IMG/VR virus record: IMGVR_UViG_3300046167_000097
Span: 1-24,783 of that record
Source of the DNA: a virus
Strand: one strand, 5' to 3'
Length of the DNA: 24,783 bases
A model generated the notes under the pieces. The model was not told where the DNA came from. It did no database searches and saw only the letters and a list, made by a program, of their open reading frames with translations. Position 1 is the first letter of the stretch. Each line of letters begins with the position of its first letter. This document shows, piece after piece, positions 3,172 to 18,039 of the stretch. Position numbers and translations under genes: made by a program.

Positions 3172-5883
3172 ATGGATGATTTAGCCCTCTTAATGCTTCT
3201 AGAGAAATTTAAGAAGCGCTTAAACAAGGTAGACTCTCGTACAGCCAAAGTATACAAGGACGGCGAGAGAGGCCCTCAGGGGCCACAGGGGCCTCAAGGG
3301 ATCAAAGGGGAGGGTACACAAGGCCCTAAGGGTGAACAAGGCTCACAGGGTCCTCAGGGGCCTCAGGGAGCCAATGGTTCCGATGGTTCCTCGGGTGTCG
3401 ATGGTGTCGATGGTGAGGACGGAGTATCTATTGTAGACGCTGAGTTTGCTGCTGATGGTGACTTAGTATTTACCCTCTCCGATGGTACTGAGTTATCTGT
3501 AGAGATGCCTTTGGACTCTGGTGGTGAGAAGAGTAACATCTTTATAAGCCAAGGGGGCGGAGGTAACTCAGGTGGCTCAGGCGGCGATAGTATTGACATT
3601 GAGGAAAACATAGACTCAATTATTGAATCACTTGATCCTCGTTACATCAAGAAGGCTGGTGATACAGGGATTCAAAGTCTGTACTGGACAAAAGACGAGT
3701 CTATAGGTACTGATGGGGTCAACTTATTTACACTACGCCCCAGTGCTGTGGACTATGTTGGGGATTACACTGAGGATGACCATGTAGCCACTAAGAAGAA
3801 TGTCGATGATGCTATTGACAACATTGAACTGCTTGAGGGGCCAGAGGGTCCTGAGGGGCCGCAAGGCATACAAGGTGACAAAGGTGACACGGGAGACCAA
3901 GGACTACCGGGGCCGACAGCGGTGTCTACTGACGCTGACAACTACGCAACGCTAGGCACTGACAATAAGATATATGTTCCTACCCCTGTAGATACTTCAG
4001 CAAGCTTATCTCTCCAGTGGATGTTTAGGAACCCTCTAGGTAGCGCACCTGAGCCTAATTACTTCTCTACTAACAACGTAGACAACGCCTTAGTCACTGC
4101 GCTTAACGTGTCTTATGTTGCGTTTCCTAACAGAGAAGTCGCTAACTTACTTGGTGAGTTAAGGACAGGGGACAAGATATATCTACAGCAAGGCTCTGAC
4201 GAATCAGCCTACGCTAACTATGACCTGACAGGGGAAGTAATAGACAACGGAACGTACTACACAATCCCTGTCTCAGCCTATGACAACGGCCCTGATGAGT
4301 TTGAAGGCCAACAGCTATGTTCCTTCCTTATCTTTAGGACTTCATCTGAAGGCGGCACTGGAGGCGGAGGCTCTGATGAGAACGCACTGTCCTTTGCTAA
4401 GGGTGCAGGTCTAGCGGTAGAGCAAGGATTACTGGCAGCAGACGGTCAACCCGCTAAGACGGTACTAGCCGTTGGCCCTACGAACACAGGTAAAGTCCAA
4501 GGCTGTAGCTTAGGCGCTGGTAACGTGGTCGAGGTCTACGCCAGTGGTGCTGACTACAACAACGCTACCGTGCTGTACCGTGAGTTCATGGGCGCAGGTG
4601 AGCCTATCTGCTTTACGGGTCTGAGTACCGGCGCAATCATAACGTCTACTCAAGGCTTCTATGGCATGAGCGAGCAGCTAAACGGAAGTTTTGAAAGCCC
4701 TATGCCGCTGCTAAGTCTAGGCTTGGCGTTCACAAGTACGTTTGTTTACTGCTTCCGAAACTCACAAAGCTTCCCCGGCTCGGGTGCCAGCACAGGGCAG
4801 ATCACAATTATTAACGGTGCGCTCCCCTCTACGGTGACATTCACTAGAAATGGCAACGAAGTTGGAGGACAAGCTCCTAGAGACTTAGCCCCCTTTGAGG
4901 CTTGCTACTTTTACAGTGACGCTAACGGCGAGTTTCTAATCGAAGCTACAAGCCCTGTCATGGCGTGTGTTCAAGCCTACATGGGAACTAACCCACCCTT
5001 AGAAGTTGGCGATCCGGGGGATGCTGGTCAACGATTCTACGACGCACGTCTCGTTATGCCGCTGACTAATGACGGTATGACATGGCCGCGTTCTGGATTC
5101 GTAAGTGCGCCTTATGCTGGTACGGAGTCTAAGTATTACGTGCGCGATGGTGTGACTGGAGACTTCCCAACGGTAAGTCCCGGCTCTCCCGTAGACTTCG
5201 ACGCTGGTGGTAGCACAGGCGCAGCCGACCAAGACTACGAGCCGAGGGGCTGTACACGCCTAAGGGTAGCAGGTCTAGTATCAGCCTACTCTGGTGCAGA
5301 CTCAGCGGGTCTTGAGGCATCACCTATGATTCCTGTAAGCGCTATGTCTCAGGTTGTAGCTCAGCCTTTCACTATTGCTGACAACGGTGACGGAGGTAAC
5401 TCAGGTGTCGCCATCGGCAGCCCTTACGAGGGAACCGCTAAGGTTTACCAGTGGAACACAGCGACAGGCGTTGCTGAGTTGGCCTACACAGTACCGCTAG
5501 GCAGAGGCACCACAGGGCAGGGTATAGCCCCGGCAACACCGGAGGATCAATACATCCCGTGTGCTGGCTTGGTAGCTAACGAGACAGCACTTGGTGCCTC
5601 TGATCCATCAGTGGTTGAGTTGGTAGGCACGTTAAACCCCGGCTATATCGTAGCTGATGTGCCTATTACGGTGGTTGCTCAGAACGGCGACCCCGGCACG
5701 ATCCCACCAATACGCTCTCAGAATGGCACAACGACTCAAGGCATTGTATCGGACGATGACGAGACTCTGATGCTTGGCTGGACGCCAGCGCAGAAGAAGG
5801 CCGAGATCACTGAGGATGCCGATGGATTTACCCGCAAACGAGTACTAGATAACACAGGAGCAGTAACGTGGCCCCTAACTTAA
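3172..5883 (+). CDS. Collagen-like fibre / appendage protein
   Basis: This 903-residue structural protein probably forms a trimeric fibre on the virion. The start ATG directly follows the portal stop (TAAATG) and is preceded by a G-rich ribosome site. A short helical N-terminus is followed by Gly-X-Y repeats at residues 31-84, with one stagger near residue 47, rich in GPQ triplets. A second run lies at residues 223-249. Between them is a phage-fibre-like segment (DPRYIKKAGDTG, then EDDHVATKKNVDDAI) similar to tail-fibre repeats. The large C-terminal part (about 400-903), after a Gly/Ser linker, is beta-rich with many Gly, Asn and Thr and a handful of Cys; I cannot assign it to a family, but it is a good candidate for a receptor-binding or cell-adhesion domain. 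Placement between portal and scaffold is unusual for a tail fibre, so a head fibre is possible. Confidence 0.72.
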   Translation: MDDLALLMLLEKFKKRLNKVDSRTAKVYKDGERGPQGPQGPQGIKGEGTQGPKGEQGSQGPQGPQGANGSDGSSGVDGVDGEDGVSIVDAEFAADGDLVFTLSDGTELSVEMPLDSGGEKSNIFISQGGGGNSGGSGGDSIDIEENIDSIIESLDPRYIKKAGDTGIQSLYWTKDESIGTDGVNLFTLRPSAVDYVGDYTEDDHVATKKNVDDAIDNIELLEGPEGPEGPQGIQGDKGDTGDQGLPGPTAVSTDADNYATLGTDNKIYVPTPVDTSASLSLQWMFRNPLGSAPEPNYFSTNNVDNALVTALNVSYVAFPNREVANLLGELRTGDKIYLQQGSDESAYANYDLTGEVIDNGTYYTIPVSAYDNGPDEFEGQQLCSFLIFRTSSEGGTGGGGSDENALSFAKGAGLAVEQGLLAADGQPAKTVLAVGPTNTGKVQGCSLGAGNVVEVYASGADYNNATVLYREFMGAGEPICFTGLSTGAIITSTQGFYGMSEQLNGSFESPMPLLSLGLAFTSTFVYCFRNSQSFPGSGASTGQITIINGALPSTVTFTRNGNEVGGQAPRDLAPFEACYFYSDANGEFLIEATSPVMACVQAYMGTNPPLEVGDPGDAGQRFYDARLVMPLTNDGMTWPRSGFVSAPYAGTESKYYVRDGVTGDFPTVSPGSPVDFDAGGSTGAADQDYEPRGCTRLRVAGLVSAYSGADSAGLEASPMIPVSAMSQVVAQPFTIADNGDGGNSGVAIGSPYEGTAKVYQWNTATGVAELAYTVPLGRGTTGQGIAPATPEDQYIPCAGLVANETALGASDPSVVELVGTLNPGYIVADVPITVVAQNGDPGTIPPIRSQNGTTTQGIVSDDDETLMLGWTPAQKKAEITEDADGFTRKRVLDNTGAVTWPLT
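3262..3423 (+). repeat. Collagen-like Gly-X-Y repeat run 1
   Basis: The codons for residues 31-84 of the appendage protein give Gly at nearly every third position, many as Gly-Pro-Gln, with one residue missing near residue 47. It should form a trimeric collagen-type helix. The DNA is correspondingly G-rich and internally repetitive. Confidence 0.9.
3838..3918 (+). repeat. Collagen-like Gly-X-Y repeat run 2
   Basis: The codons for residues 223-249 of the same protein give nine Gly-X-Y triplets (GPEGPEGPQGIQGDKGDTG and on). It starts shortly after the ATKKNVDD fibre segment and precedes the large C-terminal domain. Confidence 0.88.
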
Positions 5884-9351: not shown

Positions 9352-11394
9352 ATGGCTACAACGATTATCACAAAGAATGGATCAGGTGCTCCCGCAGCAG
9401 GCGACTTAGTTCAGGGTGAACTTGCGGTAGACTTAACAAACCAAACTTTATATTCAAAAGATTCTTCAGGCAACGTCTTCAAAGTAGGTGACACCGGTGG
9501 TGGTTCTCCCGGTACCTTTACTGATTTGGTTGCCACAGACAGCTTTACTTCCCCCGGCATCGACGATAATGCTACGTCAACTCAGATTACTGTTACCGAT
9601 ACAGATGTAGACTTTAGTGGCAACATTGATGTTACTGGTACAGCTACCCTTCCTGACGCCGATGTAACAACCTTAGATGTCACAGGTACAACCACCCTAG
9701 CAGACGTAGACGTAGTAGATCTTGACGTTACGGGTAGCTTTACTTCCCCCGGCATCGACGACAACGCTACGTCCACGGCTATCACGATTGATGCTAATGA
9801 GAACGTGGGCATTGGTACTACGAGTCCTTTTGGCCCTTTAGATGTAAAAGCCGCTACTGACATTCACGTTGGCATTGCTGACAGCGGCAGTGACGCTCTG
9901 ATATACGCATCTACAGACGCAGGGCAAACCGCTGTTGTGCCTTTAAAGTTTCAAGGCAGCTCGTTTAAGTTTAATGGCTCTAGCGAGTTTATGCGTATCG
10001 ACGCCTCAGGAAACGTGGGCATTGGATACAACTCCCCGACCGCGAAGCTTCACGTTTTAGAAGATGGTAGTCCTTGCGCTTTAACTGTTCAAGCTCTTGG
10101 CGCTAGTAATACAGCAACTTTAAATCTACTAGGTAGAGATTCGTCTAATGTGTCGGTGGCTTATAAAATCCAAACCGTAGCAGACGGGGCGCTATCATTC
10201 TCTAAAGACTCTAACGAGCGCCTCCGTATCGACGCCGCAGGAACCACAACGGTAACAGGTGGCTTCTTGGCTGCTCAACCGAGTGCTGGTTCTGGTGCGT
10301 TTGCTGCTGGTACTGACGCAGGAGCGATAAGTCAATCCGCTAGCGCTGTTGCTGTAGGCAATGCGGCGGGGTATACAGGCCAAGGAGCAAATACTGTTGC
10401 TGTCGGTCTGCTGGCTGGACGTACAAACCAAGGCCAAGATTCTGTTGCTATTGGTAAATACTCAGGCAACAACACTCAGGGTGGTCAGGCTGTTGCTATT
10501 GGCGTCAGCGCAGGTCAGACAACCCAACAAGGCAGTGCTGTCGCTGTTGGCCGCCAAGCAGGCGAGACAGACCAAGGTTTCGCTAGTGTCGCTACTGGCT
10601 ACCAAGCGGGGCAGTTAAGGCAGGGTGGCTATGGCGTTGCTGTAGGTCATGCGGCAGGACTTTCAGACCAAGGCGCCCGTTCTGTTGCCGTTGGACTCAG
10701 CGCTGGTCAGGTAAACCAAGGCGCTAGTTCGGTAGCGATAGGCCATCTGGCAGGCCAAACCAACCAAGCCGCTAACAGCATTGTTATTAGCTCGTTAGGT
10801 TCCGCAGCAAACGCACCCGAAGCCAACTCTATTCGTTTGATATCGTCGTCAACTAAGTACCTGCACTACAACGGCACTAACGCTTGGACGTTCACAGGCG
10901 GTGACGTAAAGGTTCCCGCTGACGACTTAGTAGTAGGTACTTCCAGTACTGTAGGCAACGGCGTTAGCACGGCTGGCGTACAGCTCACTACTAACCCTTC
11001 TGGAGTCGGACAGATTCGGCTTGGTAAGACACTATCTGGCACATATTCGATGCTGGCTAACTACCACAACGGCGTGTTTGTAGGTGGCCTAAACGTGTCA
11101 AACACAACCACTGCCCTAGTTGCTTCATCTGATGAGCGCCTAAAGAAGAACATCGTTGATGCTCCTGCTGGTAACATTGAGGACATTAAGGTTCGTTCAT
11201 TCGACTGGAAGTCTACTGATGAGCACCAAGAGTATGGTGTAATAGCTCAGGAGTTAAACGAGGTTGCTCCTTACGCAGTCCACCATAACGAGGAAGAGGA
11301 TCACTGGGGCGTAGACTATGCCTCATTAGTCCCAATGCTGGTTAAAGAAATCCAAGACTTAAAGGCCGAAGTAGCGGCACTCAAAGGAGCATAA
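9352..11394 (+). CDS. Tail fibre with S74 self-cleaving chaperone
   Basis: This 680-residue protein is a probable trimeric tail fibre or spike. The N-terminus (ITKNGSGAPAAGDLVQGELA) is typical of phage fibres. A beta-rich shaft includes NVGIGTTSP and NVGIGYNSPTAKLHV segments. Residues 332-475 are nine 16-residue repeats of the type SVAVGxxAGxTxQG, similar to YadA-type left-handed beta-roll repeats. The C-terminus (from about 590) matches peptidase S74 intramolecular chaperones: SDERLKKNI, FDWK, YGVIAQELNEV, and a final coiled coil. By analogy with endosialidase, Ser593 and Lys598 form the dyad (same +5 spacing) and the chaperone is cut off before Ser593 once the trimer has folded. The ribosome site CAGGAG precedes the ATG. 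Host-receptor binding is inferred. Confidence 0.88.
   Translation: MATTIITKNGSGAPAAGDLVQGELAVDLTNQTLYSKDSSGNVFKVGDTGGGSPGTFTDLVATDSFTSPGIDDNATSTQITVTDTDVDFSGNIDVTGTATLPDADVTTLDVTGTTTLADVDVVDLDVTGSFTSPGIDDNATSTAITIDANENVGIGTTSPFGPLDVKAATDIHVGIADSGSDALIYASTDAGQTAVVPLKFQGSSFKFNGSSEFMRIDASGNVGIGYNSPTAKLHVLEDGSPCALTVQALGASNTATLNLLGRDSSNVSVAYKIQTVADGALSFSKDSNERLRIDAAGTTTVTGGFLAAQPSAGSGAFAAGTDAGAISQSASAVAVGNAAGYTGQGANTVAVGLLAGRTNQGQDSVAIGKYSGNNTQGGQAVAIGVSAGQTTQQGSAVAVGRQAGETDQGFASVATGYQAGQLRQGGYGVAVGHAAGLSDQGARSVAVGLSAGQVNQGASSVAIGHLAGQTNQAANSIVISSLGSAANAPEANSIRLISSSTKYLHYNGTNAWTFTGGDVKVPADDLVVGTSSTVGNGVSTAGVQLTTNPSGVGQIRLGKTLSGTYSMLANYHNGVFVGGLNVSNTTTALVASSDERLKKNIVDAPAGNIEDIKVRSFDWKSTDEHQEYGVIAQELNEVAPYAVHHNEEEDHWGVDYASLVPMLVKEIQDLKAEVAALKGA
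9541..9566 (+). repeat. Near-exact direct repeat within the fibre gene, copy 1
   Basis: A 26-base stretch beginning AGCTTTACTTCCCCCGGC encodes the start of SFTSPGIDDNATST. It recurs identically at 9736-9761, 195 bases (65 codons) downstream, and the similarity continues for about 14 more bases. Confidence 0.85.
9736..9761 (+). repeat. Near-exact direct repeat within the fibre gene, copy 2
   Basis: This is the second copy of the 26-base repeat at 9541-9566, in the same frame. It marks a duplicated fibre-shaft segment. Confidence 0.85.
10345..10776 (+). repeat. Nine 48-base coding repeats (YadA-like beta-roll)
   Basis: Nine consecutive 16-codon units encode variants of SVAVGxxAGxTxQG (residues 332-475), and a degenerate tenth unit follows. 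The period is exactly 48 bases, while third-position bases vary, so the copies are old and kept by protein selection. The likely structure is a stacked left-handed beta-roll in a trimer. Confidence 0.88.
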
Positions 11395-11397
11395 AGA

Positions 11398-11781
11398 ATG
11401 ACAACGATTACATGGAGCATTGTAGCCATTGACTACGACATTAAGGGAGGCGTTAAGGTTCCTACTCGTACACATTGGGTTTGTTCTGGTGAGGACGCTG
11501 AAGGCAACACGGGTCGCTACATAGGCACCCGAGCAGTCACTCAGGGTGATACAAAGACCTTCACTGGTTGGGACAACATCACTGAGGAAGCAGCTCTAGA
11601 GTGGCTTTTGACGGACATGGGTGTAGTAACGATGGATGTAGATGCAGAAGGCAACGTCCCTAAGTCTGAGAAGGACACCATAGAAGCTGCTGTGAACGCT
11701 CAGGTTGCTGAGAAGGCTAAACCCACTAAGGGTACTGGGTTGCCTTGGGCTGCTCCTGAAGCAGCTACTATGGAGGTCTAA
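11398..11781 (+). CDS. Small tail-region protein, DUF7936-like
   Basis: This 127-residue protein follows the fibre gene after three bases, with AAAGGAG upstream. It begins TITWSIVAIDYDIKGGVKVP and continues with a beta-rich region (THWVCSGEDAEGNTGRYIGT) and then TEEAALEWLLTDMG. The overall pattern, an N-terminal TWSI/TWxV strand followed by a Trp-containing strand and a helix with a central Trp, matches in my memory a small phage family labelled DUF7936; this should be checked. The function is unknown. Position next to a fibre suggests a fibre-associated or assembly role. The last 20 residues are Pro/Ala-rich and likely disordered. It overlaps the next gene by one base (TAATG). Confidence 0.72.
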   Translation: MTTITWSIVAIDYDIKGGVKVPTRTHWVCSGEDAEGNTGRYIGTRAVTQGDTKTFTGWDNITEEAALEWLLTDMGVVTMDVDAEGNVPKSEKDTIEAAVNAQVAEKAKPTKGTGLPWAAPEAATMEV

Positions 11782-11921
11782 TGAAGACCTTAGTAGCCCT
11801 AGCACTCGTGTTACTCTGTGGATGCTCAGGCACACTACGAGAGAAATCTACGGTGTGCTTGGGCTTCTGTGCTCACACTGAAGTTGAAACTGAAACTCAC
11901 ACAAAGGAAATCAAGAAATGA
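11781..11921 (+). CDS. 46-residue predicted lipoprotein
   Basis: This short ORF begins at the ATG sharing one base with the previous stop (TAATG) and ends overlapping the next start by four bases (ATGA), a tight coupling that supports a real gene. The product starts MKTLVALALVLLCGCSG: a basic N-terminus, a hydrophobic core and a lipobox-like L-C-G-C with Cys15 as the lipidated residue (Cys at -2 is unusual but tolerable). The mature part is only about 32 residues, has Cys26 and Cys30, and ends polar (HTEVETETHTKEIKK). Small phage lipoproteins include outer-membrane spanin subunits and superinfection-exclusion proteins; neither can be chosen here, and no inner-membrane spanin partner is seen. 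Confidence 0.72.
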   Translation: MKTLVALALVLLCGCSGTLREKSTVCLGFCAHTEVETETHTKEIKK

Positions 11922-12247
11922 ATGCATTTGTTCTACTACTCACCTTAGTCACCTTCTCTACTATGGCTGCTGAGATTTACTTAGATGACGGTAGGGTCGT
12001 AGCGTTACCTGTAGGCTCCAAGGTGTACATAGATGATGGGACTGTATGGACGTTCACACGGTTCAACGAGGGTGGCTTCGACATTAGACCCTTGACACCT
12101 TTGGTGGAGATTACTGAGGTATGTCCACAGTCAGGCTTAACTTTTGGTGGCAGCAGCGGCTCCTGTGTAGTAGAAGAGGTAGTGACAGAGGAGACAGAAG
12201 AAGCCTGTGATGGGTTCACCTTTGGTGGTAGCTCTGACGGATGTTGA
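11918..12247 (+). CDS. Secreted small protein with Cys-flanked TFGG motifs
   Basis: This 109-residue protein has a clear signal peptide (MNAFVLLLTLVTFSTMAA, cleavage probable after Ala18). A small beta-rich region follows (EIYLDDGRVVALPVGSKVYI, then GTVWTFTRF). The C-terminal half has two copies of a motif in which Cys residues bracket TFGG: CPQSGLTFGGSSGSC and CDGFTFGGSSDGC, separated by an acidic Val/Glu/Thr linker. Disulfides would be possible in the periplasm. The same motif occurs in the next gene. The start overlaps the lipoprotein stop by four bases. I do not recognise a family. An envelope-active or virion-attached role is suggested by the signal and by its lipoprotein neighbour, but is unproven. 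Confidence 0.7.
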   Translation: MNAFVLLLTLVTFSTMAAEIYLDDGRVVALPVGSKVYIDDGTVWTFTRFNEGGFDIRPLTPLVEITEVCPQSGLTFGGSSGSCVVEEVVTEETEEACDGFTFGGSSDGC

Positions 12248-12257
12248 GGGGTAAATA

Positions 12258-14135
12258 ATGACTGCTTATGTAGATGATAAAAGAAAACCCATAGGACAAG
12301 AAATTAATGTCGGACTTGACGGTGGTGCTCAACAAACCTCATACCAAGGAGGCTCACAGCAGGCTAATCAGTACGTAAGAGAAGCAATGCGTATAAAGAG
12401 GCAGACGTGTACTGCTACTGGTGGGTTTAACAAAGGACAAGGAGATAATCACGAGTGCCTATATGGCGAAGATGCAGTAGCGCACATTGAAGGCATTGGA
12501 GAAAACGCACCTGCTTATGACCGTGCTCAACAGTGGTTAGCTGAGTACAATGAAGAGCCTGATCTAGATGATCCTTATTCTGTAGATGGAGAAGACCCCT
12601 TCGATGACACAGGTGCCTATGCTATTGACACAGACGGTGATGGTTTTGTAGACACTGTTGTACGTGATAACTACATAGAAGTGGCTGGCGAGAACGGAAT
12701 AGAAACTCAAATTGAAACCGTAAGGGTCAACGGTAACGAGGAGCTTGATGCTGAAGTACAGGCTGCTCAAGACCTTAAGGATTCCATATACAACCAAGAA
12801 GGCTGGGATGACCTAGAACCTTGGGAGCAAGACCAACAGTTGATTAACGCAGGAGGCACTGCAATCAACGGTACTGATGGTAACCCTCCTGAGGAGACTG
12901 AGGAGACTGAAGAAACATTGGTTGAAGGTGTTACCTCTACTGTACAAGAAGGGATTGATAAGATTAAAGAAGAGTTCCCAACTTGGGAAGAACTCTGGGG
13001 TAACATTAAAGATGCCCTACCTAGCGACCCTGAGGAGTGGGGAGATGCCATTAGAGGTGTGCTTACTTCTGTAGGTGTTGATTTACCCAGTGGAGACATT
13101 TGGGAAATACTCAATGGAGGATACGGTGTTATTGCTACTGGTGGTGGGTCTATATTTAACCCAGCTAACCAAAACGTATTCATCCCCGGTATTCCCGTAG
13201 GTTTACCCCCGTCATCTACAGTCATAGGCACTGTGGAGGATTTAATCAACGACCCTGTAGGAACATTGGTTAACAAGGTTAAAGATGTCTTTGGAGACAT
13301 TGTTTCTGATCCCGGAGCCTTCGTACAAGGGATACTAGAGGGAACCTTAGATGTCCCCTCAAGTGTCTGGGATGTCCTTGTAGGCGGTGTTGCAGCAGGT
13401 CAAGATGTGTACGACTGGGTTAAGGAAACCATAGGTAGTTCTGAAGAAGAAACTATTGTAGGTGGCGAAGAAGAAGAAGTCGAGGAGCAAACTGAGGAGC
13501 AAGTCGAGGAGCAAGTCGAGGAGCAAGTCGAGGAGCAAGTCGAGGAGCAAGAAGATCCAGCAGAAAACGCTAGAGTAAATCAAGTCCTTGACTTCTTTAG
13601 CAGCGCCTTCAACTCCGTCCCTGATCCTGAGGAGCAAGTCGAGGAGCCTGAAGATGGGCTTACCTTTGGAGGAGAAAGTGTAGTTTATGAGCAGGGTGAG
13701 ATAAACCCTAGAGAGCAACAAGTCGTTAGCCTCTTCAGTAGTATGTTTAACTCTGTACCTGATCCTGAGGAAGAAGAAGAAGAGGAAGTAATAACAGGAG
13801 GAGAAGTAACTGAGGAAGAAGAGGTAGTAACTGAGGAAGAAGAGTGTGATCCATTTACATTCGGTGGCGGCTCAGGGTGTAATGCATACGACCCCGTAGT
13901 ACAAGATCCTGTAGTAGAAGACCCTATAGTAGACACTCCTCCTCCCCCTCCTCCAGAAGAGCCTCCGATAACCGGGGGTGGTGGAGCTAGTGGAGGTGCT
14001 GGAGGCAGTAATAACGGTGAGTTTGAAGGCTTCTTAAGTGGCATTGATTATAATCCCTTGCAGATCCAAGCTTTAATCGAATCTAAGCAGCGTAAGTCTC
14101 TTGTTTCATCTCTGTTTTCGGAGTACTTTGCATGA
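12258..14135 (+). CDS. Large acidic repeat protein of unknown function
   Basis: This 625-residue protein has a GAGGGG ribosome site upstream and no signal peptide. The N-terminal third is polar with a Cys pair (about residues 51-70) and an Asp-rich loop at 124-132 (DTDGDGFVD) that resembles a calcium-binding loop. The middle (about 215-390) contains amphipathic helical segments with several Trp and Gly/Pro-rich links. From about 400 it is extremely acidic, with six EEQ-type tandem units, two copies of an FSSxFNSVPDPEE element, two TFGG motifs (one as CDPFTFGGGSGC), and a Pro run. A Gly/Ser linker leads to a short C-terminal helix (FLSGIDYNPLQIQALIESKQ). It sits between the secreted protein and the adaptor, so a virion or tail component is plausible. 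No family is recognised. Confidence 0.7.
   Translation: MTAYVDDKRKPIGQEINVGLDGGAQQTSYQGGSQQANQYVREAMRIKRQTCTATGGFNKGQGDNHECLYGEDAVAHIEGIGENAPAYDRAQQWLAEYNEEPDLDDPYSVDGEDPFDDTGAYAIDTDGDGFVDTVVRDNYIEVAGENGIETQIETVRVNGNEELDAEVQAAQDLKDSIYNQEGWDDLEPWEQDQQLINAGGTAINGTDGNPPEETEETEETLVEGVTSTVQEGIDKIKEEFPTWEELWGNIKDALPSDPEEWGDAIRGVLTSVGVDLPSGDIWEILNGGYGVIATGGGSIFNPANQNVFIPGIPVGLPPSSTVIGTVEDLINDPVGTLVNKVKDVFGDIVSDPGAFVQGILEGTLDVPSSVWDVLVGGVAAGQDVYDWVKETIGSSEEETIVGGEEEEVEEQTEEQVEEQVEEQVEEQVEEQEDPAENARVNQVLDFFSSAFNSVPDPEEQVEEPEDGLTFGGESVVYEQGEINPREQQVVSLFSSMFNSVPDPEEEEEEEVITGGEVTEEEEVVTEEEECDPFTFGGGSGCNAYDPVVQDPVVEDPIVDTPPPPPPEEPPITGGGGASGGAGGSNNGEFEGFLSGIDYNPLQIQALIESKQRKSLVSSLFSEYFA
13479..13550 (+). 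repeat. Six tandem 12-base units in the acidic protein gene
   Basis: Six units of GTCGAGGAGCAA (the second begins ACT instead of GTC) run head to tail and encode VEEQ repeats (one TEEQ). A further copy-like stretch occurs at 13629-13646. Near-identity at DNA level points to recent expansion, so length may vary between relatives. Confidence 0.92.
13581..13772 (+). repeat. Duplicated FSSxFNSVPDPEE segment
   Basis: Two in-frame copies of a segment with hydrophobic start and PDPEE end (residues about 445-461 and 490-507) lie about 140 bases apart, each preceded by a Gln-containing stretch and separated by a TFGG motif. The DNA copies differ at many third positions, so this duplication is older than the 12-base expansion. 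The protein C-terminus (SSLFSEYFA) weakly echoes it. Confidence 0.75.
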
Positions 14136-14779
14136 CATATTTACAATTAGTAAACAACGTCCTGAGAAGGATGCGAGAAGAGGAGGTTCCTAGTGTTGAC
14201 TCCTCTACCTACAGTAAGATGATAGGTGACTTCGTTAACGATGCTAAGAAACTTATAGAGACTTCTTGGGACTGGTCAGCCTTACGGACTACAGTAGTGT
14301 TCACAACCTCTGAGGATGTCTTTACTTACCCCTTAGAAGATACTAAGGATACTGTGAAGGCTTTGAATGTAATTAACGACACCTCTGATTTCTTCATGGA
14401 CTATCGTACTACTGACTGGTTTGACAATCAGTATTACAACCAAGATCCGGTTAAGGGGACACCACAGTTGTACACCTATAGGGGCCTTGATTCTAATGGC
14501 GATACTCAGATAGATGTATACCCTAAGCCTGACGGTGCTTATGTTGTTAGGTTCAACTGTGTCTTACGTAACGATGAGCTAGTGGCTGACACAGATAAGC
14601 TAATGATTCCTAACATGCCTGTGATTCACCTCGCGGTAGCCTTATCAGCCCGTGAGCGAGGCGAGACAGGAGGCACATCAACAGCCGAGTACTTTGCTAT
14701 TGCTAATCAGTATCTCTCTGATGCTATCGCTCTGGACGCACAGAAGCACCCTTATGCAACAGACTGGTATACCCCTTAG
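14132..14779 (+). CDS. Head-tail adaptor / tail tubular A-like protein
   Basis: This 215-residue protein probably forms the ring below the portal. Its start overlaps the preceding stop by four bases (ATGA). The N-terminal helical segment (TYLQLVNNVLRRMREEEVPS, then VNDAKKLIETSWDWSALR) is the typical beginning of podovirus adaptor (gp11/SU10 adaptor-like) proteins. A beta-rich centre follows with a QLYTYRG and IDVYPKPDGAYVVRF pattern. It closes with a helix (HLAVALSARERGETGG, then YFAIANQYLSDAIALDAQ). Length and the nozzle-like neighbour fit this family. The exact subfamily is uncertain. Confidence 0.8.
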   Translation: MTYLQLVNNVLRRMREEEVPSVDSSTYSKMIGDFVNDAKKLIETSWDWSALRTTVVFTTSEDVFTYPLEDTKDTVKALNVINDTSDFFMDYRTTDWFDNQYYNQDPVKGTPQLYTYRGLDSNGDTQIDVYPKPDGAYVVRFNCVLRNDELVADTDKLMIPNMPVIHLAVALSARERGETGGTSTAEYFAIANQYLSDAIALDAQKHPYATDWYTP

Positions 14780-14789
14780 GAGCTAGTGT

Positions 14790-16307
14790 ATGGCCCAGCC
14801 CTTACAAAGTATTAACCTAGTTGCTCCTGCGTTCAAGGGGATCAACACTGAGGATTCCCCGTTAGCTCAGGACCCCTCGTTTGCTGATGTTGCAGATAAC
14901 GCTGTCATTGACAAGCGAGGACGTATTGCAGCACGTAAAGGTCTTGATACGCTTACTAACTATAAGTCAGAGTTAGGTACTGATTACGTACATTCAATAC
15001 ACGAGTTCTTCTCTGAAGCCGGTAATACTGTCGTGTTCAGCATGGGTAACGATAAGATACTCTCAGGAGTCCATGCCTTTGTCGATGAAACACCAGCAGG
15101 TTACGTAATTGCTGAGAACGACTGGCGCACCGTAAACTTTAACAACGCTGCTTACTTCTTCCAGAGAGGACAAGAGCCACTCATCTATACCGACACAGGT
15201 GGCCTTCAGACCTTTGGTGACTACGAAGGACACACGACTCCTACGACTTTGTATTGTAATGAAGCTGCTGCGGCATACGGTAGACTCTGGGTAGTCGATA
15301 GTAACGAAGGTGCACAGACTATCTATTGGTCTGACTTACTCAACGGTACTGATTTCTCTAGTGGCACCTCAGGCTCTATAAATATTTCTGAGGCTTGGCC
15401 TGATGGTGCCGATAGTGTCGTAGGCATCGCAGCACACAACAGCCTCCTAATTATCTTTGGTAGACGCAGCATCATTGTGTACGAAGGTGCTGACTCTCCA
15501 GCTACTATGGCTATTGTTGACACAGTTCCCGGCGTAGGTTGCATTGATAGAAACTCTATACAGCACATCGGTACTGACATACTCTTCTTAGATGACACAG
15601 GGCTTAGGAGCTTTGGTAGAACCATCCAAGAGAAGTCTATGCCTATTAGCGACCTCAGTGGTAACATCAAGACTGAGTTCATCCAGACTCTTGTTAACCG
15701 ACAGGGGCCAGTAGCTACCATATATTCACCAGAGAATACATTTTACCTCGTGTCGTTCCCCTCTAATAACCTTACGTACTGCTTTGATCTTAAGGGTAGG
15801 ACAGAGAATGGATCATATAGGGTTACTCGTTGGCCTTCTAGTTATTTCTTCTCCTTTGAGACTCTTGCTAACGGAGAGCTTCTTGTGGGTAACACTAACG
15901 GTCTAAGCATCTACGCAGGATACTCAGACAATAATGAAGCTTATCGTTTTAGGTACTACAGTCCGGGGTTAACCTTTGGTGACCCTTCAAAGCTAAAGAT
16001 CCTTAAGAAGCTTAGGCCCACCATTGTAGGCGCTAACTCAGCTACGGTGTTTCTTTACTGGGCCTATGACTTTAGTACTGCGTATAGATCCCAAGCATAC
16101 ACTGTAGGTAATCAAGACCCAGCCTTCTATAACATTTCTGAGTTTAACATAGGTGAGTTCACTGGTGGTACTTTGATTTCTCGAAGGGCCATTAACGCCA
16201 CAGGAGATGGTAGTGTGATAACAATTGGACTTGAAGCAGACATCAATGGGTTCGCTTTGTCACTACAAGAAATTAACGTACTAGCACTGATAGGTAAAAC
16301 ATTATGA
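14790..16307 (+). CDS. Tail nozzle / tail tubular B-like protein
   Basis: This 505-residue protein probably builds the short tail below the adaptor. It begins with the AFKGINTEDSPLAQDPSFAD segment seen in many podovirus tail proteins, followed by ADNAVIDKRGRIAARKGLDT, a pattern of beta-propeller nozzle proteins that I recognise from marine phage annotations. The middle has repeated beta segments (LWVVDSNEGAQTIYWSDLLN, then GRRSIIVYEGADSPATM), as in a propeller. A TAGGAG ribosome site lies upstream of 14790. Only ten bases separate it from the adaptor stop, so the two are a matched pair. A strictly enzymatic role is unlikely, as no active-site motif is visible. Confidence 0.8.
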   Translation: MAQPLQSINLVAPAFKGINTEDSPLAQDPSFADVADNAVIDKRGRIAARKGLDTLTNYKSELGTDYVHSIHEFFSEAGNTVVFSMGNDKILSGVHAFVDETPAGYVIAENDWRTVNFNNAAYFFQRGQEPLIYTDTGGLQTFGDYEGHTTPTTLYCNEAAAAYGRLWVVDSNEGAQTIYWSDLLNGTDFSSGTSGSINISEAWPDGADSVVGIAAHNSLLIIFGRRSIIVYEGADSPATMAIVDTVPGVGCIDRNSIQHIGTDILFLDDTGLRSFGRTIQEKSMPISDLSGNIKTEFIQTLVNRQGPVATIYSPENTFYLVSFPSNNLTYCFDLKGRTENGSYRVTRWPSSYFFSFETLANGELLVGNTNGLSIYAGYSDNNEAYRFRYYSPGLTFGDPSKLKILKKLRPTIVGANSATVFLYWAYDFSTAYRSQAYTVGNQDPAFYNISEFNIGEFTGGTLISRRAINATGDGSVITIGLEADINGFALSLQEINVLALIGKTL

Positions 16308-16537
16308 GCAACTATACACCGACAACAGACTTTGCTTCTAAGGATGCTTTGCCTTCAGGTGATCCAGCTAAGATTATCAAAGGTACTGACTTTAGCGTAG
16401 AGTTTAATAACATTGCAACAGCAGTGGCGTCTAAGGCTAACACAGATAGCCCTACGTTCACGGGTGTTGTAACAATCTCTGACCTAAACTTTGTAGGTAC
16501 GTTGGATTCAGGAACAATTGACGGAGGTACTTACTAA
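16304..16537 (+). CDS. Short fibre-like tail protein
   Basis: This 77-residue protein overlaps the nozzle gene stop by four bases and shares one base with the next start. The N-terminus (SNYTPTTDFASKDALPSGDP, then KIIKGTDFSVEFNNIATAV) is the kind of segment that attaches phage fibres to the tail. The C-terminus is a short beta-type stretch (SPTFTGVVTISDLNF, TLDSGTIDGGTY), as in triple-stranded fibres. It is far shorter than a normal fibre, so it may be an adaptor onto which a separately encoded fibre is fixed, or a remnant. It probably acts at the tail tip or collar. Confidence 0.75.
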   Translation: MSNYTPTTDFASKDALPSGDPAKIIKGTDFSVEFNNIATAVASKANTDSPTFTGVVTISDLNFVGTLDSGTIDGGTY

Positions 16538-18039
16538 TGCAAGAACTTTTAGCTTTACTCGGTTTAGGAGCCACAGGAGGATTCTTAACTAACGAGGCCA
16601 TGGGTAGACTAGGAGACATAGGAGAGCAGTCTGTCGTAGGTACTCAAGTTGAAGGGCCTGATGGACAAATGGTAGATGTCCCCGGCGCTTTAGACCTAGC
16701 GAAGCTGGGTTTGGACCAAACTCAATTTCAGCCCTTCTCAGTTACCTCCTCTACAGGTAGTAAGTTTGGTTTCCAGCCAACTTATGATGCCGAAGGTGCT
16801 CTCTCAGGATTTGGATCTTCTACGACCCTATCCCCAGAGGAGCAGGCAATACAAAGTATGCTCATGGGTCAAGCGCAGTCAACTTTAGGCGCAGGGCCGT
16901 ATGGTCAGGCTGGAGGTAGAGCAGCAGCAGAGCAAGCGTACGGTCTTGGCGGTCAGTTTATGCAAGCTGCACAGACACAGCCGGGAGACATCAACCAACT
17001 TAGGGGGCAGTTTGCCAACCAAGTTAGTGGACAACTCGGACAGCAACCCAGTGCTGCTATAGGGCAACTCGGACAGCAAGCGTTAGGCTTAGGCTCTCAA
17101 GGCTTAGCAACGCAGGCTCCGTCAGACGTAGAAGCTCTTAGGCAGCAGTACGCAGGCTTGGCAGGTCAAGCGGCGGGTGACGTCTTAGGCTCTACAGCAG
17201 GCCGTGAGGCTGATGTATACAACCGCATCCGGGCTACTCAGAGGCCTGAGGAAGAACGACAGCGTATGGCTCTAGAGGAGCGTCTGTTCAATCAAGGTCG
17301 TTCAGGTGTCTCTACTAACATGTACGGTGGTACTCCTGAGCAACTTGCGATGGCTAAGGCTCAAGGGGAAGCACAGAACCAAGCTTCGTTAGCTGCTATT
17401 CAGCAAGCTCAGGCAGAACGTCAGCAGTCCTTAGGTGAAGCTAAAACCTTTGGTGGTATGTTTGGACAACAAGCGGGGCTGTCTAGTGACATACAGACTC
17501 AAGCACAAGCTAGGGCGTCACAGTTATCAACGCTAGGCTTGAGTGCAAACCAGATTGAGTCTCAGTTGCAGACTGAAGGCTTAGGTAGGGCAGTCACATC
17601 GTCTGGTCAGTCAGCAGCACTCGCTAAAATGGCAGGAGACTTGCAGGCACAACAGGCAGGCCTCGGCTTAGGAATGTCTGAGCTAGGTTCTCAGTTGTCT
17701 GCACAAGACATGGCGCTCTTAGGAGCACAGCAGAAGCTAGGCTTAGGATCTTTGGCTGGTGCTTATATACCACAGGGTCAGATGAATGATCTACAGGCTC
17801 AGAATCAGATGTACGCACAGCTAGGCCAACGTGGTCAACTCTCTGGCGCAGGCCTCTTTGGTGAAGCAGCTATGGGTGGCCTTGAGGCTCGACTAATAGC
17901 AGAGCAAGCACAAGCTAACCTCTTAGGTAACTTAGGATCTGGTTTACTTAGTGGTATCTTTAGCCCAGTTGCTCAAGCAGGTGGTGGTGCTACTAGCCTC
18001 ATTGGTAGTGCACTAAGTCAATTAGGTAAAGGGAGTTAA
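16537..18039 (+). CDS. Internal virion protein, Gln/Ala/Gly-rich
   Basis: This 500-residue protein is the first of three that probably leave the head with the DNA and help it cross the envelope. It opens with a hydrophobic Gly-rich segment (ELLALLGLGATGGFLTNEAM), has long Gln/Ala/Gly-rich helical stretches (about 110-450), and ends in another hydrophobic Gly-rich segment (NLLGNLGSGLLSGIFSPVAQ). A conserved-looking charged centre (RPEEERQRMALEERLFNQGR, then GGTPEQLAMAKAQGEAQNQ) is familiar from podovirus internal proteins. No lysozyme or transglycosylase motif is seen. Position after the tail proteins and before two larger partners fits the T7 gp14-15-16 arrangement by analogy only. Confidence 0.75.
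   Translation: MQELLALLGLGATGGFLTNEAMGRLGDIGEQSVVGTQVEGPDGQMVDVPGALDLAKLGLDQTQFQPFSVTSSTGSKFGFQPTYDAEGALSGFGSSTTLSPEEQAIQSMLMGQAQSTLGAGPYGQAGGRAAAEQAYGLGGQFMQAAQTQPGDINQLRGQFANQVSGQLGQQPSAAIGQLGQQALGLGSQGLATQAPSDVEALRQQYAGLAGQAAGDVLGSTAGREADVYNRIRATQRPEEERQRMALEERLFNQGRSGVSTNMYGGTPEQLAMAKAQGEAQNQASLAAIQQAQAERQQSLGEAKTFGGMFGQQAGLSSDIQTQAQARASQLSTLGLSANQIESQLQTEGLGRAVTSSGQSAALAKMAGDLQAQQAGLGLGMSELGSQLSAQDMALLGAQQKLGLGSLAGAYIPQGQMNDLQAQNQMYAQLGQRGQLSGAGLFGEAAMGGLEARLIAEQAQANLLGNLGSGLLSGIFSPVAQAGGGATSLIGSALSQLGKGS

Follow-up and report, generated by a model that had tools for sequence, protein, structure and literature searches.

A short TFGG peptide occurs in both exported and tail-region proteins of uncultured phages

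Why should a small secreted protein of a phage and the large acidic protein encoded next to it carry the same short peptide? The question is raised by a stretch of viral DNA of 24,783 nucleotides (IMG/VR record IMGVR_UViG_3300046167_000097), analysed as a whole and called the window in what follows, where a Cys-flanked TFGG motif had been noticed in two neighbouring genes. We found that this observation is real and broader than first seen.

The two neighbouring genes and their surroundings

With its 24.8 kb, the window covers part of the genome of an uncultured phage. Its genes follow a podovirus-like arrangement: terminase, portal, scaffold, capsid, S74 tail fibre, DUF7936 protein, 46-aa lipoprotein, P0001 (the small secreted protein), P0002 (its acidic neighbour), tail adaptor and nozzle-like protein, part of these names being given from position and from our own reading, without a family match. 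A ribonucleotide reductase gene lies on the opposite strand. The genes from the tail fibre to the tail adaptor, described next, are all on the + strand. The tail fibre with its C-terminal S74 chaperone domain (9352..11394; PF13884, E 1.3e-11) is separated by the DUF7936 protein (11398..11781; PF25590, E 1.1e-16) from the 46-aa lipoprotein (11781..11921), which has an LCGC lipobox and a mini-loop CLGFC, and whose stop overlaps the start of the P0001 gene (ATGA). P0001 (11918..12247) is an exported protein of 109 aa with a signal peptide, a small beta-rich domain, a disordered acidic tail and two Cys-flanked TFGG loops: CPQSGLTFGGSSGSC (loop 1, 12122..12166) and, at the very C-terminus, CDGFTFGGSSDGC (loop 2, 12206..12244). 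The beta-rich domain and the disordered tail are those of an AlphaFold2 model of low confidence (pLDDT 51, and below 50 for residues 61-109).

P0002 (12258..14135), an acidic protein of 625 aa without signal peptide, occupies a hypervariable gene slot just before the SU10-type tail adaptor (14132..14779; PF24175, E 6.8e-15). Its AlphaFold2 model is also of low confidence (pLDDT 39). A predicted disordered acidic stretch of about residues 400-585 (13455..14012) holds both of its motif copies, the bare GLTFGGES (13656..13679) and the Cys-flanked CDPFTFGGGSGC (13845..13880), together with a duplicated segment (NQVLDFFSSAFNSVPDPEE / QQVVSLFSSMFNSVPDPEE). These motif-bearing stretches, modelled as disordered in P0001 and P0002 alike, would be the picture of a short linear motif recognised by one partner. 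The original prediction had two copies in each protein and a signal peptide in the smaller one only, exactly as we find them. It also had an acidic linker ahead of every copy; this is right for loop 2 and for both copies of P0002, less so for loop 1, which follows PLVEITEV. P0002, known by its position beside the tail adaptor, has no PHROG or Pfam match, neither protein has a Pfam, PHROG or NCBIfam match above cut-off or a PDB relative by sequence, and the module can indeed be called recurrent and without a named domain.

Elsewhere in the window, the best PHROG match of 14790-16307 is labelled 'amidase', the other matches being head closure, packaged DNA stabilisation and putative structural protein; these matches and the position indicate a nozzle-like tail protein, and the 'amidase' label looks wrong. 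The product of 16537-18039 (presumed internal virion protein) and its homologues have a conserved SLGEAKTFGGMFGQ, whose TFGG we treated as unrelated, as it comes without preceding Leu or Phe and without acidic context. The collagen-like protein of 3172-5883 is 94% identical over 689 aa to L086:7210-9660 of another phage, G012, while portal, scaffold and capsid of the two are only 50-55% identical. Because of this difference, we see here a sign that the collagen-like gene was recently exchanged between the window's phage type and G012.

Distribution of the peptide and of its cysteines

The C-terminus of the P0001 family has the form C-x(2-5)-[LF][TSG]FGG-x(0-5)-C down to about 30% identity. A scan of viral contigs with six TFGG-free search peptides gave 18 relatives of P0001, all with both TFGG loops; homologues deprived of the motif, which the original prediction would have taken as a sign of chance similarity, were not seen among them. 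In an alignment of 17 sequences of the family, T, F, G, G and the last Cys of the C-terminal loop are invariant and the acidic linker is variable. An alignment-based scan gave 35 contigs, to about 29% identity, with one pattern which included the motif, so that this set is partly selected; the universality of the motif in the exported family rests on the scans whose patterns were motif-free. Some contigs were retrieved via motif-containing patterns, and the collections consist of fragments, so that what is missing from a contig is not necessarily missing from the phage. A scan of all IMG/VR DNA for CDG[LF]TFGG returned 27 stretches, nearly all from the P0001 family. Among 50,697 phage records there were zero relatives of P0001 and P0002, and no isolate has a relative of P0001, P0002, the 46-aa lipoprotein or the two other exported proteins described in the next paragraph. 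A scan of about 85,000 cellular genomes confirmed no relative: it gave 15 pattern matches, none a relative, and we rejected the idea of a widespread cellular motif. A scan of cellular genomes for the Mx8-like capsid, aimed at the host through prophages, confirmed nothing, and a literature search on the motif gave nothing relevant.

P0001 is not the only exported carrier. A non-homologous lipoprotein of 264-266 aa (the A4 family, with core NADVAKTQS) replaces it in L025, L027 and L046-L048, and the TFGG group of phages is the only one where A4 proteins were found to end in C-x-[LF][TS]FGG-x-C. Relatives of A4 in other phages (L050-L060) keep a C-terminal C-x-F-x-C loop with the cores PQFSP, VMFSP, PTFEG and PTFDG, as though the loop peptide were specific to the phage lineage. 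In contigs of T4 type (L123 has matches for tail tube and head closure, and in L139 the exported gene is next to NrdA/NrdB), a P0001 relative of 119-122 aa ends in CVPDGLTFGGGC, CTPDGLTFGGGC, CNPDGLSFGGC or CDELGFGGTCEN; motif-free search peptides gave the last two, and the loop core there is still [LF][TGS]FGG. Variants of the motif are LGFG[GHP] and LSFGG. A second variant is common to both classes of proteins, as seen in the exported first loop CIDQLGFGPEQC (L119) and in DTLGFGPEQ of a slot protein (L116).

The slot proteins are large, acidic and encoded beside the tail adaptor, with one to five motif copies. They belong to several unrelated families with little overall similarity (the P0002, MAVGRDV, MAWVDNK and L045 types), and they would be located in the virion. 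Other families of the same slot, collagen-like (L012, L014) or Cys-rich (L015-L018, L030), are without the motif. The slot between secreted protein and tail adaptor (window 12258-14135, L009-L045) is hypervariable and receives interchangeable proteins of 411-1492 aa, which are acidic, collagen-like, Cys-rich, EKD-repeat or DUF4214-containing. A sister motif LGFG[HP] is found in slot proteins of L009, L010, L028, L033, L035 and L116, mostly near the N-terminus.

The related phage contigs have 485 non-redundant ORFs, in which we counted 56 copies of [LF]TFGG where shuffled sequences led us to expect 0.25. A single copy (L131:5928-8147) falls outside the exported proteins and the large proteins that belong to the slot class or neighbour it. 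P0002 has two copies for 0.004 expected. A fairer test is given by 17 slot proteins from contigs found through genes other than the slot protein's own motif: nine of them are motif-positive, with 26 copies in all for 0.054 expected.

The cysteines follow another rule. Among 43 distinct exported contexts, 40 have a Cys on both sides inside the short stretch of residues displayed; in two others the first Cys lies just beyond this stretch, and the remaining one comes from a truncated slot protein (L044). The slot contexts number 38, of which 37 are without flanking Cys and one, CDPFTFGGGSGC of P0002, has both. Since the cysteines flank nearly all exported copies and only one slot copy, the shared element is the TFGG peptide, and the cysteines follow compartment and export. 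Hence the cysteines, which the original prediction had put into the shared module, belong to it in the exported proteins and drop out of it in the slot proteins. There are no conserved ligands beyond the two Cys, and we rejected the metal site once envisaged as unsupported; the exported loops are probably closed by a disulfide. With its linker (EEEVVTEEEECDPFTFGGGSGC), the exceptional slot copy resembles the tail of the L116 exported protein, EEEVIVEEEECDPFTFGGSGDC, over 22 residues, 30 of 36 bases being identical across 12 identical residues. Because of this resemblance, the slot gene may have acquired this copy by recombination with an exported gene.

This resemblance would also suit the idea that the motif is a functionless product of chance or of simple local duplication of neighbouring genes. 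We consider this very improbable, given the number of copies in the 17 slot proteins and the following facts. The longest DNA word shared by the P0001 and P0002 genes has 12 bases, and the copies encode TFGG with different, synonymous codons. Furthermore, the two motif classes co-occur without being adjacent in G013 (35.0 kb) and G014 (33.7 kb), two Mx8-like genomes (the G013 capsid is 62-70% identical to those of Mx8 and BUCT555) with a gene reading as integrase. Compared by blastp with window-type phages, their fibres are 28-55% identical, their terminase about 20% and the A4 lipoprotein 67% (G013 copy versus L025), and G014 possesses the N-terminal 25 residues of MAVGRDV slot proteins at 96% identity. 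In each of them [LF]TFGG is encoded at exactly two sites: in the loop of the lipoprotein and, several genes off, in a large protein. The genes flanking that of the large protein are direct neighbours in BUCT555, for which reason it reads as an insertion relative to BUCT555. Local duplication therefore does not explain a pair which is not adjacent. We rejected the duplication that the original prediction had envisaged, as a recent local event, and concluded that it is excluded together with chance.

What the shared peptide may do

The distribution suggests that exported and tail-region proteins grip the same partner, perhaps shielding the infected cell or the new virions. Such a shared partner would most likely be a host envelope protein: because the motif is common to phage types with hardly anything else in common, the partner is likelier to come from the host than from the phage, even if remote phage homologues, for instance of the adaptor or nozzle, could be the partners. 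The reading which we prefer, tentatively and with less than even confidence, is that [LF]TFGG is a short linear motif binding a host envelope protein, used for entry in the tail region and exported late as a receptor shield. One partner would recognise the peptide in both settings. The large and mostly disordered protein of the tail or adaptor region, whose acidic linkers contain the bare peptide one to five times, would meet the partner during virion attachment or ejection. The small exported protein, secreted or lipid-anchored, would display the peptide C-terminally between two cysteines, a form fit for the oxidising conditions of the periplasm, and would keep the partner occupied at a late stage of infection. 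As a result, superinfecting phages, or the phage's own progeny, would not be caught on the cell or its debris.

We counted in favour of this shield that the exported gene overlaps the gene of a Cor-like lipoprotein (see the next section) and follows the fibre. Also in its favour are the enrichment of the peptide in the two protein classes, the rule of the cysteines, the retention of the peptide in distant P0001 relatives and of the loop in the A4 lipoprotein, the second variant common to both classes, the non-adjacent pairs of G013 and G014, and the small size, periplasmic location and disulfides of known exclusion lipoproteins. Several facts count against it. Eight of the 17 slot proteins are motif-free though their exported partner retains the motif. 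G012, probably complete because it is terminally redundant, has the motif in the exported gene only and at most a variant, KGLSFGPHGG, in the slot region. In the phages with QFSP or TFEG lipoproteins, the slot proteins do not clearly repeat the loop core and have only weak look-alikes. The Cor match of the lipoprotein is below cut-off and depends on the signal peptide. Last, the exported gene is beside a holin gene in relatives, which suits lysis too.

This last fact leads to an alternative, unlikely in our opinion, where the exported protein is an accessory of a late lysis cassette (holin, coiled-coil membrane protein, lipoprotein), its TFGG loops tethering it to a component of the envelope or cell wall and the slot protein using the same anchor during passage of the virion through the wall. 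The exported gene does adjoin those of a GTA_holin_3TM holin (E 3.5e-21 in L025) and of a coiled-coil protein of 80-90 aa with a C-terminal membrane segment in L025, L027-L035, L037-L040, L044 and L045, with L026 and L036 as exceptions. However, no holin adjoins it in the window or in L003-L019; in L020 and L041-L043 it lies beside replication and ribonucleotide reductase genes, and we recognised no lysis gene next to it in the T4-type contigs. P0001 does not look like a spanin either: it consists of signal peptide, beta-rich domain and disordered tail (in the low-confidence model) and matches no spanin family; nor does it match DUF7244, an SH3 protein of lysis modules, DUF6719 being the only one of the plausible families to match, weakly. 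We also observed that holin and coiled-coil protein (a weak XhlA/DUF7201 match) lie between the exported and slot genes, L094-L099 included, and that neither is there in the window.

A docking inside the phage, which we judge slightly less likely still, would have the motif bind a phage-encoded partner such as the adaptor, the nozzle or a fibre; it would attach slot proteins to the virion, and particles released into the envelope would be coated or chaperoned by the exported protein. The slot gene does adjoin the adaptor gene, several slot proteins have a related C-terminal segment (FxxFLxGIxYxPxxxQxII), and multiple motif copies suit avidity. This is opposed by the blastp comparison of G013 and G014 with the window-type phages, which gave no single conserved phage partner, and by the exported loop of the T4-type phages. 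It is also improbable that TFGG, instead of binding a partner, is recognised or cut by a peptidase or modifying enzyme of host or phage. A short motif ending in Gly-Gly, repeated and lying in predicted disorder could be expected of a processing site, but only one to five residues, ending in or near Cys, are left after the exported C-terminal copy, [LF], T and F are conserved ahead of the Gly pair, and the flanking cysteines are found almost exclusively in exported proteins. Hence we prefer the exported receptor shield, itself tentative, over lysis accessory and docking.

A more general reading, which we would advance with little confidence, is that the peptide is a 'key' in two compartments, bare and repeated on the tail-region protein, cysteine-closed on at least two unrelated exported families. 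This code would cross lineages, phages which have hosts rather than ancestry in common exporting a mimic of their own entry peptide. Should a host envelope protein be what the motif binds, sequence alone would have pointed to the entry factor used by a group of uncultured phages, and superinfection would be excluded by an exported protein that mimics the peptide with which the phage itself enters. As the cysteines are present only in the oxidising compartment and the same peptide is found in three phage types, these ideas are directly testable with synthetic peptides.

Comparison with exclusion proteins and other families

A Pfam family to compare with P0001 is DUF6719 (PF20477), weakly alike over the signal peptide and the first strands in 11 of 17 members (best E 2e-4); P0001 of the window differs in reaching 16.1 bits for a gathering score of 27 bits, only its N-terminal part being covered. 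DUF7244 proteins are small and near a holin, as are the relatives of P0001, which in its low-confidence model has a beta-rich domain; P0001 differs from them in its export and its TFGG loops.

The comparison with superinfection exclusion comes from the neighbouring 46-aa lipoprotein, whose best match in PHROG and NCBIfam is the exclusion protein Cor (PHROG_1119: E 4e-5 to 1.4e-4, the latter for the window's copy, with an hhalign probability of 94%; NCBIfam: E 8e-4 to 0.016 and 15.2-19.3 bits, below the curated cut-off of 31 bits). The mature part alone gives no match to Cor, the signal peptide being needed, and nine A4 lipoproteins, which form a natural control, do not match Cor. With its LCGC lipobox and a VC at the Cor-equivalent position, the protein aligns with the first half of Cor of N15 and HK022 (GCSGxLxEKSxVCxG). 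It has 46 residues where Cor has about 77 with a Cys near the C-terminus, and thus is without the C-terminal half. The gene order is also reminiscent: fibre, DUF7936 and lipoprotein in the window, tail tip fibre, two genes and cor in N15. By its sequence, the lipoprotein is probably Cor-like, with a match below the curated cut-off, and points to a known kind of function for the cluster noticed in the original prediction.

The exclusion lipoproteins Llp of T5 and Rtp45 are small disulfide-bonded proteins of the periplasm; those of the Llp type also block adsorption to lysed cell fragments (PMC9586334, PMC12685063). P0001 has in common with Cor, Llp and Rtp45 (phages HK022, N15, T1, T5, Rtp) that it is small, exported and cysteine-containing, and that its gene lies near the fibre gene, as in N15; it differs from Cor by having no lipobox and no sequence relation to it. 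We know of no exclusion lipoprotein which shares a peptide with a tail-region protein. The g3p of filamentous phages is a part of the entry apparatus which also blocks later infection when it is periplasmic. It would be an analogy of mechanism only, the likeness being an entry part that doubles as a periplasmic block.
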